From NCBI GenBank assembly GCA_014800605.1, contig JAAVFS010000066.1:1-43898 (forward strand): 43,898 nt of DNA, written 5' to 3'. The notes beneath the pieces are model-generated. The model saw nothing but the letters and a program-made list of their open reading frames with translations, searched no databases and had not been told where the DNA came from. The position numbers and the translations under genes are program-made. The stretch is from Bacteroidales bacterium (lineage in GTDB: Bacteria > Bacteroidota > Bacteroidia > Bacteroidales > Muribaculaceae). Below, piece after piece: positions 206 through 3,215 of this stretch; within the stretch, counting starts at the first letter, position 1, and every line of letters starts with the position of its first letter.

Positions 206-474
206 CCTCCTTTATCCTCACACTCATGGTTGGTCTGAGGATGTTTATTAGCCGGAATAGAGATTTCAGCTAACCATAATGATCGCCCGGAAGTGGGCTT
301 ACAACTGATGTAAAGTTTTATGGCGACAAAATAGCGATTGTTTTTACTTTTATCGGCAAAAATATTATTTTTGTCGCTGATGTAAAAGCAGTTGTGGCGT
401 TATGCCGGATGTATCCTCCATTCGGGTCGCACACCAAGCAAGCCAACATGAATAATACCTTAAACCTATCATAC

Positions 475-916
475 ATGATTCGTAAATTCTCTCCATTACT
501 GACTATCGTCACCGCGCTCTCAGCAAGCGCCGCCGCATGGATGTCGGAACTTCCCGACTTCCGCCGCATACGTCAAATGTCAATCCCCGTCGCTCATGAT
601 GCCGCCACATCTTCGGTAAGCGGTCTATACAGCAAATGTCAGTATCTGACCATCGCCCAACAGTGGGATAAAGGGGTCCGCGCAACCTCCGTCCCCGCGT
701 ACAAGGTAGCACGCTGATGATATACCATGGCTCAGTAGCTACCGGAGTCTCGCTCGAAGATGCCACAATCGACAGCGACGGCTCATCCTCCGACGCTGCT
801 GACGACCGCGTATTCAATCTCTACGGCATCCCGGTTGGCACCGGTGCCGACGCGCTCCGCACCCTCGCCCCGGGCATATATATATCCTCAACGGGAAAAA
901 GCACCTTGTCCGCTGA
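475..916 (+). pseudogene. Decayed phosphatidylinositol-specific phospholipase C (PI-PLC X domain)-like gene with a T9SS-like C-terminal sorting tail
   Basis: Signal peptide plus WMSELPDFRRIRQMSIPVAHDAATSS...CQYLTIAQQWDKGVR, then a frame change into LRPRVQGSTLMIYHGSVATGVSLEDA, then RVFNLYGIPVGTGADALRTLAPGIYI and, in another frame, LNGKKHLVR*. The catalytic-domain middle is missing. Confidence 0.75.
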
Positions 917-1016
917 CATTCCCCAACCAAAGAAAAACTTCTTTAACGCGAGCTCGATAAAATAGAACACAAGGTTGGGGTAATAACTATCAGATACAAA
1001 GACTAATGTCCAGCCA

Positions 1017-1120
1017 GGACACCGATTAACCCGTAGCCCGGTACATGGAGCGCTTTAGCGCGACATGTGCCGGGTATTTGATTCCAACAGAAGTGGTGTC
1101 CGGCCGAGGACTCCGATTAA
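1017..1120. repeat. REP-like imperfect palindrome with flanking near-direct repeats
   Basis: tagcccggtacatggagcgct/agcgcgacatgtgccgggta hairpin, enclosed by ggacacc/ggtgtcc, with ggacaccgattaa (1017-1029) and ggactccgattaa (1108-1120) matching at 12/13 positions. Confidence 0.5.
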
Positions 1121-1445
1121 AGCGGTTCAGGTCAAAGTCGTTTACTACGGAATTGTCTGCTGTCAGTTGTCCGCGCCCTGTCAGTCGTCGAAGCAGCACG
1201 GATAGGTGTTCATCTTTTTCATGTTGCCTGTGTTTTGTACTGAAATTAATGCGACCTTATCAACAATCATTCCGTCCCAAAAAGTGACAGTTCCCCGACA
1301 TTTTAACGACTTTTATTATTTTAATGGCATATATGCTCTTCTGCATCACCAACAAAATCAGGGCGGCTTTTATAGTGATAAAAAAAAGAGACTGCCTAAC
1401 TTTAGTTGTTAGATAGTCTCTCAGGTGGGTATGTGATTTAGAATT

Positions 1446-2117
1446 TTACCAAGACCTGCCCACGCTCATTATGAGAATTCCCTCCGGTATATCTTTCGGA
1501 TTTATAGGACATAATCCAAAATTGTAAACCTCCGGGTTATAACTCTTAAACGAAACACAATAGTCATCTCTATTATTGGAATATGTTTTTCTTCCATATC
1601 TTGATTCCTTGTTATAGAACTCAATGCGTTCAGGATGAAAGTCGTAGTATGCTCTGTCGATTATTTTGAATAATTCCCTATCGGTAATTTTGTCTTTATT
1701 TCCGTTTAAATAGTCTACAATCCCTGTAATCATAGTCGGAATGAATTGCAGATATTGTTCGTCGCTATACGAATCCCAATAATTATACCAAGAGCAGTAA
1801 TAGTGGACTCTATCAATAAAATAAACCAGTGGACAACCGCTTAAATAGCTGGCATCATTATTAAATAAAGGAGCTTGACCATTCTTGTCTATAAGAATCA
1901 TACCCATAAGGATGCGCATGTCGCCGACGACTGTCCTATCGGTAAACGGTATTATGGATAGGCCTTCAACCATATCTTTAAAGGGCATTAGGATGGGTGA
2001 CATATTCTCATATTCAGTTTCTGATGATGCGGAGTTGTCGCCACTATTGGTCTTGCTGTTAGAACACGAGAACATGGAAAGCCCGAGAATACAGCTTAGA
2101 ATTAATTTTGTATTCAT
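1446..2117 (-). CDS. Hypothetical lipoprotein
   Basis: 223-aa ORF with lipoprotein signal MNTKLILSCILGLSMFSCSNSK; no family recognised. Confidence 0.8.
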   Translation of the reverse strand: MNTKLILSCILGLSMFSCSNSKTNSGDNSASSETEYENMSPILMPFKDMVEGLSIIPFTDRTVVGDMRILMGMILIDKNGQAPLFNNDASYLSGCPLVYFIDRVHYYCSWYNYWDSYSDEQYLQFIPTMITGIVDYLNGNKDKITDRELFKIIDRAYYDFHPERIEFYNKESRYGRKTYSNNRDDYCVSFKSYNPEVYNFGLCPINPKDIPEGILIMSVGRSW

Positions 2118-2152
2118 ATAAGTAATAGTGATTTAAATGAAGCTTTTTGAAA

Positions 2153-2575
2153 TCAAAATAGAAGTTTAAGTATTTGGTCGACGAGTTTATCTTCAAGCCT
2201 ATCTCGCTCGTCATCGCTTTCACAAGAAGATAAGGTAAGCCACTCAATGCTATCCTTTTCCGGTATTAATTCTTCATTAATCGGCCGATTGTATTTGATT
2301 CCGGTACTTACGGCCGCGATTAATATATCACATTTATTTTCATGCCCGAATCTGAGCGCTTCCCTAAGATAGCGGCTTCCGTCTCCAACTGAATAGACTC
2401 CAATCAGCTTTTCATCGTTGATGAAAATGGATCTGAAATCATTTTCCCATTTAAAGGTGCTGAAAGAAATCTCCGGTATAGCGTGTTTTAATAAAAATCC
2501 GCGTATCTTTTGACATACGGTGGTTTTGCCGACATCCTTGTCGCCGTAAATGAAATATACTTTCATTTTATTCAT
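2153..2575 (-). CDS. Small P-loop NTPase-like protein
   Basis: Start trimmed to MNKMKVYF; Walker A-like motif GDKDVGKTT close to the N-terminus; 36 bp upstream of the lipoprotein start, same strand. Confidence 0.75.
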   Translation of the reverse strand: MNKMKVYFIYGDKDVGKTTVCQKIRGFLLKHAIPEISFSTFKWENDFRSIFINDEKLIGVYSVGDGSRYLREALRFGHENKCDILIAAVSTGIKYNRPINEELIPEKDSIEWLTLSSCESDDERDRLEDKLVDQILKLLF

Positions 2576-2609
2576 TACCTTTGGGCTCACGTCATCGGCA
2601 GTTTCATAA

Positions 2610-2936
2610 TATTTAAAACAAAAGCGTGAGAGCCACACTGCTGCTCGTCCCACGGTTAGAGGCTCTGGCATACGCCCATCTCAGTTGAACGAGCAAACAT
2701 GCAGAAGCCTCACGCAGAATATGCGTAAATACGTCAAAAGCCTGCGCTCACGTGCTTGCTAAAGTAACGCATATACATATCCACAAAGGGCATCTACCGT
2801 TTGCTTCAGTCCTGACTGAGATTTGAAACTGCCAGATTTCTAACCGTCAAGAAAGAGCGTCGAGTAAACGCTTTTCAAAATGTCTGCTGACCCGCCCGCA
2901 TAGCCCATGACCGGGCTTCTGCAGTGCGGTCTGCAT
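2610..2936 (-). ncRNA. Putative structured non-coding RNA of about 320 nt (family unknown)
   Basis: Minus-strand promoter ATTG-N20-TATCTTTG at 2971-2940; at least six inverted-repeat stems inside (listed in findings); T-rich run (ttttgtttt) right after the last stem. Confidence 0.5.
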
Positions 2937-2939
2937 ACG

Positions 2940-2971
2940 CAAAGATAGATATTAGTTTTTAGTTATGCAAT
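2940..2971 (-). promoter_or_regulatory. Bacteroidota-type promoter of the putative ncRNA
   Basis: Plus-strand caaagata at 2940-2947 (= TATCTTTG on minus) and caat at 2968-2971 (= ATTG on minus), spacer 20 nt. Confidence 0.55.
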
Positions 2972-3215
2972 AGCGGGTGTCTTTAGCGGATAGTGTTTTT
3001 TTGTGAGTGAGACGGAATGACAACCTTTGTAAATAAATACATACTTTTATTAAGATACCGATTATCGCATTTACGCTTTGCGCGGTAGCTGGACTGTCGG
3101 CCACCTCTATACAGGTCGACATGACGCCATCAGGGGATTAAACAAATTCTTACAAAAAATTCGTTGGTAAATTAAAAAAAATTAAAAATAGACTTTTTAT
3201 TATCGAATAAATAGC

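Follow-up and report, generated by a model that had tools for sequence, protein, structure and literature searches.

The described RNAs closest to the one presented here fall into several groups. Large leaders that work as riboswitches or attenuators (T-box and cobalamin leaders) share with it a position in the 5' leader, pseudoknots, a terminal stem followed by a U-run, competing pairings and many copies per genome; in contrast to them, our RNA measures about 320 nt, has no match in Rfam, precedes genes without a common pathway, and is followed, after the U-run, by a loop that pairs back onto the RNA itself. OLE, GOLLD, ROOL and HEARO are comparable in size, complexity and conservation, and also in that the mechanism is not established, whereas our RNA is restricted to Bacteroidales as sampled and is fixed to the start codon that follows it. 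The put element of phage HK022 and EAR of Firmicutes are likewise RNAs of the early leader that precede unrelated operons, but ours is far larger, carries a U-run of its own and shows leader-loop pairing. Finally, human microbiomes have yielded candidates for structured RNAs (PMC8040213), one of which, HMP2_1881, is an expressed RNA of Bacteroidetes, 108 bp long and near radical SAM genes; it comes from the same phylum and may match a fragment of our RNA, and radical SAM operons also lie behind some of our copies (L127 and L276). No description of the present RNA was found in the literature that we searched, in which subscription papers and supplementary motif sets are little covered.

The window, that is, the whole stretch of 43,898 nucleotides that was analysed, corresponds to contig C66 in a Bacteroidales genome bin of 2.0 Mb. 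Its minus strand carries, in this order, a promoter of Bacteroidales type (2971-2940, with TTG at -33 and TATCTTTG at -7), about 320 nt without a protein, a T-run (2623-2615), 39 nt, and a pair of genes. The copy of the RNA in the window occupies 2936-2615 (RNA position p corresponds to window position 2937-p), and from the placement of the promoter transcription is predicted to start near 2933. The first gene (2153-2575, start at 2575 or 2566) encodes a small P-loop NTPase of about 140 aa, and the second (1446-2117) a putative lipoprotein of 223 aa without a Pfam family, both on the minus strand. A preliminary description of this DNA had already pointed to the promoter (ATTG...TATCTTTG) and to a structure-rich stretch ended by a T-run, and these are indeed present in the sequence.

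The RNA belongs to a family. Blastn detected divergent copies in the source genome, and 72 of the 147 relatives have matches, several in each. A pattern derived from the core retrieved 120 stretches in a scan of named genomes, and among 162 loci (these stretches together with other loci) 152 matched the profile, mostly near full length. The covariance model of the core finds 6 copies in the source genome and 1 to 16 copies in each of 25 out of 41 relatives; it matches 45 of 295 genomes in a sample of the order, several other families among them, and 3 of 398 in a sample of the phylum, the source genome being one of the three. The promoter recurs in full-length homologues as well: of 143 copies, 115 have TAnnTTTG 12-13 nt upstream of RNA position 1, and 125 have it anywhere within -25 to +12, against 2/143 for the reverse-complement control.

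That the region is a conserved structured RNA seems to us practically beyond doubt. Mutual information with background correction (MI-APC), computed on 190 non-redundant copies, reveals three long-range helices, 90-98/277-285, 101-107/267-273 and 116-120/254-258, with values up to 1.09 over a background whose MAD is 0.012; since these helices cross the local helix 85-91/121-127, the core is pseudoknotted. Pairs were counted on a separately built alignment of 60 sequences, a subset of the same copies. A core model of 51 pairs has a covariation score of 0.437 (0.178 when shuffled, 0.07-0.09 when slid), and the proportion of paired cells falls to 82.2% on shuffling and to 37-47% on sliding from the value given below. 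The window copy folds more stably than its shuffles (z of -7.6, equalled by 0 of 100 shuffles). An 80-codon open stretch exists in only 7 to 20 of the 190 copies, depending on the frame, and no conserved open frame was found; this rules out a protein-coding gene in the region and agrees with the "no credible protein" of the preliminary description. Judged by its homologues, which show as much, the region is under selection as RNA.

The 5' domain (RNA 1-65, window 2872-2936) is variable, with modest support for a helix GACC/GGTC at 6-9/25-28. In the core (2790-2871), H1 (66-74/139-147, window 2871-2863/2798-2790) encloses H2 (85-91/121-127, window 2852-2846/2816-2810); both have 97.9-98.0% of cells paired, and in 2 and 4 of their pairs, respectively, the two sides have changed. 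The long-range helices H3, H4 and H5, supported by covariation, have their 5' strands (92-97, 101-107 and 116-120) within window 2817-2845 and their 3' strands (278-283, 267-273 and 254-258) within 2654-2683; 95-99% of their cells are paired, and both sides have changed in 6/6, 6/7 and 5/5 pairs, respectively. An arm that is variable in the alignment (2716-2789) is capped in many copies, those of type A, to which the window copy belongs, by a hairpin with a GNGA (GNRA-type) loop, which in the window is GCACGTGAGCGC. The 3' domain (2624-2715) is closed by H6 (222-229/306-313, window 2715-2708/2631-2624; 98.2% paired) and contains H7 (241-245/292-296; 93.3% paired). A candidate ninth helix (260-262/274-276) was dropped at 60.6% paired.

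The pairs 92-96/279-283 (window 2845-2841/2658-2654) form a hypervariable helix of 5 bp, with near-uniform base use, in an otherwise conserved RNA; this might prevent cross-pairing among the copies of one cell, or the helix might drift freely.

The preliminary description had proposed a promoter-driven structured RNA of an unrecognised class, to be checked by an Rfam search and a test of covariation. Both checks uphold it: no family was found for the window or for 10 homologues, and covariation is strong, with 95.4% of cells paired and 28 of the 51 pairs changed on both sides. Rfam 15 gives nothing at gathering score in the window, where E<=10 yields chance matches only, and no match at lax limits to the RNA of 10 homologous loci; the SRP RNA and tRNA in the flanks of these loci were detected, so the search itself works, and a known Rfam class is ruled out. 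The individual stems fared unevenly. The terminal GCGTGAG/CTCACGC and TGCTCGT/ACGAGCA are kept wholly or partly in homologues, and GAAAgAGCGT/ACGCTTTTC survives as its AGCG/CGCT core, which pairs invariantly across copies, and not in its remainder. CCGCA/TGCGG is paired in 66-87% of copies at four positions and in 0% at the fifth, and shows no covariation; for TCAGT/ACTGA the paired share is 13-60% at four of its five positions, and for the ATATGCGT arm it is 19-81%. None of these three is conserved. A local core fold combining the AGCG/CGCT hairpin with TCAGT/ACTGA was rejected, as the latter is not conserved and covariation favours 66-74/139-147 over the former. The best-supported helices of all (92-97/278-283, 101-107/267-273 and 116-120/254-258) had been missed.

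We turn now to the 3' end. The terminator-like U-run TTTTGTTTT (2615-2623) lies 3' of the terminal stem, and at least 6 T are found in the 10 nt beyond this stem in 164 of 190 homologues. Of 196 copies, 188 are followed by a gene on their own strand, and the first ATG of an open frame falls mostly 45-60 nt past the U-run. A hairpin lies in this gap in many copies; its stem varies, and its loop is of GGGAGUC type. In the window the mRNA leader is 2576-2614, and its loop GAGCC (2588-2584) complements the RNA's GGCTC (2634-2630) across the U-run. Over 195 copies, the complementarity between the leader and the 12-nt segment that precedes the RNA's final CGC is 14.99 for a copy's own leader and 12.60 for swapped ones (sd 0.23), an excess of about 10 sd, and along 300 nt of the RNA this 12-nt segment is the leader's best partner. 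Subtype A shows a strong effect and subtype B a small one, and the commoner leader of subtype B (GGGGAUGACC) pairs weakly (12.87 versus 12.04). Since the 3' strand involved is also part of the terminal stem, leader pairing and terminal stem partly compete; and the near-constant spacing of the ATG, together with a pairing that spans the U-run, means that the conserved unit extends past the U-run into the mRNA leader. On this comparative evidence the RNA is likely to be a cis-acting leader of the mRNA.

A distant low-GC family (L265-L274, in G752) has a shorter RNA in which a hairpin CACGA/UCGUG competes with the stem CGUGGGAC/GUCCCACG that precedes the U-run; by eye, its leader pairing is AAGTCCC:GGGACTT, and it is a good test system for a switch. 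Some leaders contain GAGGGGAUGACCGCGG, which resembles a T-box stretch; as the Rfam T-box model does not match the RNA, we take this to be probably coincidental.

The preliminary description saw instead a free-standing transcript ending at the T-run. A trans-acting RNA gene of this kind (comparable to OLE, ROOL or GOLLD, or a large sRNA), which would merely adjoin the gene, would account for the promoter and U-run of most copies, and its size and complexity are those of large bacterial RNAs. However, a free-standing RNA would not be expected to keep a near-constant, same-strand distance to the ATG (188/196 copies) or to pair, across the U-run, with the mRNA leader, and we regard this possibility as unlikely.

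We think it likely, with fair confidence, that these Bacteroidales RNAs, about 320 nt long and pseudoknotted, are a so far undescribed family of large cis-acting leaders, which would act as a conditional gate. Comparison among copies shows that the RNA, which has a conserved core and long-range helices, follows a housekeeping-type promoter and precedes an accessory gene or operon; its 3' end is a stem with a U-run, after which come a second hairpin, whose loop is complementary to the 3' strand of the RNA, and a start codon at near-constant distance. The mechanism that we prefer, if tentatively, is attenuation of transcription through two alternative folds. Transcription would halt at the terminal stem and U-run in one state; in the other, readthrough would let the leader loop (GGGAGUC type) bind the RNA's 3' strand, and expression of the gene would follow. 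The helices 133-137/241-244 and 140-148/228-236, each of which can pair in 85-99% of copies, would together make up a continuous rod, with which neither 66-74/139-147 nor the inner and terminal stems could coexist; the switch could then lie between two mutually exclusive conserved pairings, H1 with H6 and H7 on one side and the rod 133-148/228-244 on the other, with the reservation that the existence of two subtypes, and not base pairing, may account for some of the signal for the alternative pairs. The signal for the gate could be a metabolite, a protein or an RNA. Against this reading, a domain of some 90 nt lies within the terminal stem, which is unusual in an intrinsic terminator, the commoner leader of subtype B pairs weakly, and the diversity of the genes offers no hint of a ligand.

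Processive antitermination, as in put and EAR, would have the nascent RNA modify RNA polymerase, so that it passes its own U-run and later terminators. The position just after the promoter, the unrelated downstream operons and the terminator-like end all fit this idea; but many of the operons are one or two short genes, and known elements of this type are much smaller, which counts against it, so that we hold it to be improbable. Self-cleavage or self-splicing, by which the RNA would process the mRNA leader, is a still more doubtful proposal: pseudoknots, an arm with a GNRA-type cap and a strongly conserved core do look like a ribozyme, but no Rfam ribozyme or intron model matches, and the promoter directly abuts the RNA, which leaves no upstream exon. 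Least credible is a mobile or repeat element (MITE-like, retroelement or bridge-RNA-like) inserting upstream of genes, since the several copies per genome, and the absence of the RNA-plus-genes block of the window from the site in the nearest relative, are set against copies only 34-70% identical within a genome, with no near-identical ones and hence no recent spread, the lack of a conserved 3' end or a transposase, the fixed strand and gene spacing, and the fact that no copy was found in plasmid or phage collections.

The same divergence between copies makes the family old, and not a recent repeat. One contig of a virus collection (L160) carries a full copy, with a terminase-like gene and a BspA-type leucine-rich-repeat gene. 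At the syntenic site of the nearest relative (G007), window ~923-3103 is replaced by about 160 nt; RNA and both genes are missing, and a search for terminal inverted repeats and target duplications found that the sites differ without clean ends. The RNA-led genes are thus accessory at least at this locus. To the left of the block, at window 370-965, a gene is split into short frames where G007 (L286) has an open frame of 368 aa.

The genes behind the RNA are diverse. The 173 distinct first genes fall into 116 sequence clusters, of which 94 are singletons, and no shared pathway that would point to a ligand was found among them; 149 downstream proteins contain 48 Pfam families. The NTPase of the window shares 41% identity with the gene that comes first after another copy (L014), but its family accounts for only 3 of the 173 first genes, one of at least 116 clusters, and the functional link with the NTPase suggested by the preliminary description does not hold as a general partnership. 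A specialisation in anti-phage functions was likewise discarded, restriction-modification and similar matches being few and scattered among the 149 proteins. BspA-type leucine-rich-repeat proteins are enriched, with 20 of 137 genes in RNA-led operons against 9 of 448 other genes of the same loci (odds ratio 8.3).

The same RNA ahead of so many unrelated, mostly accessory genes would place them under one common control. It is possible, although we would not press the point, that a single class of large RNA sensor serves horizontally acquired Bacteroidales genes as a plug-in regulatory leader. If so, BspA-type surface proteins, restriction-modification, peptide-maturation operons and small NTPases would share one RNA-sensed signal, and incoming unrelated accessory genes would be brought under control by placement behind the same pseudoknotted gate. 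It is rare for a conserved RNA so large and complex to occur in many copies across dominant gut bacteria and to be missing from Rfam; its position ahead of dozens of unrelated accessory genes predicts a common signal and an RNA-defined regulon, directly testable in cultured Muribaculaceae, and the RNA would supply a functional context for many uncharacterised genes.

Some arrangements recur behind the RNA. Restriction-modification genes (type III mod/res, an EcoRI-type methylase) and an AAA ATPase block follow some copies (L262, L263, L261, L245); operons resembling radical-SAM peptide maturation follow others (L127, L135, L276, L278, L230), some with small precursor-like genes rich in Cys or Asp. 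At a further set of loci (L053, L054, L056, L116, L148, L231, L243) the RNA is immediately followed by a small variable protein and then, at most of them, by a large BspA-type leucine-rich-repeat protein.
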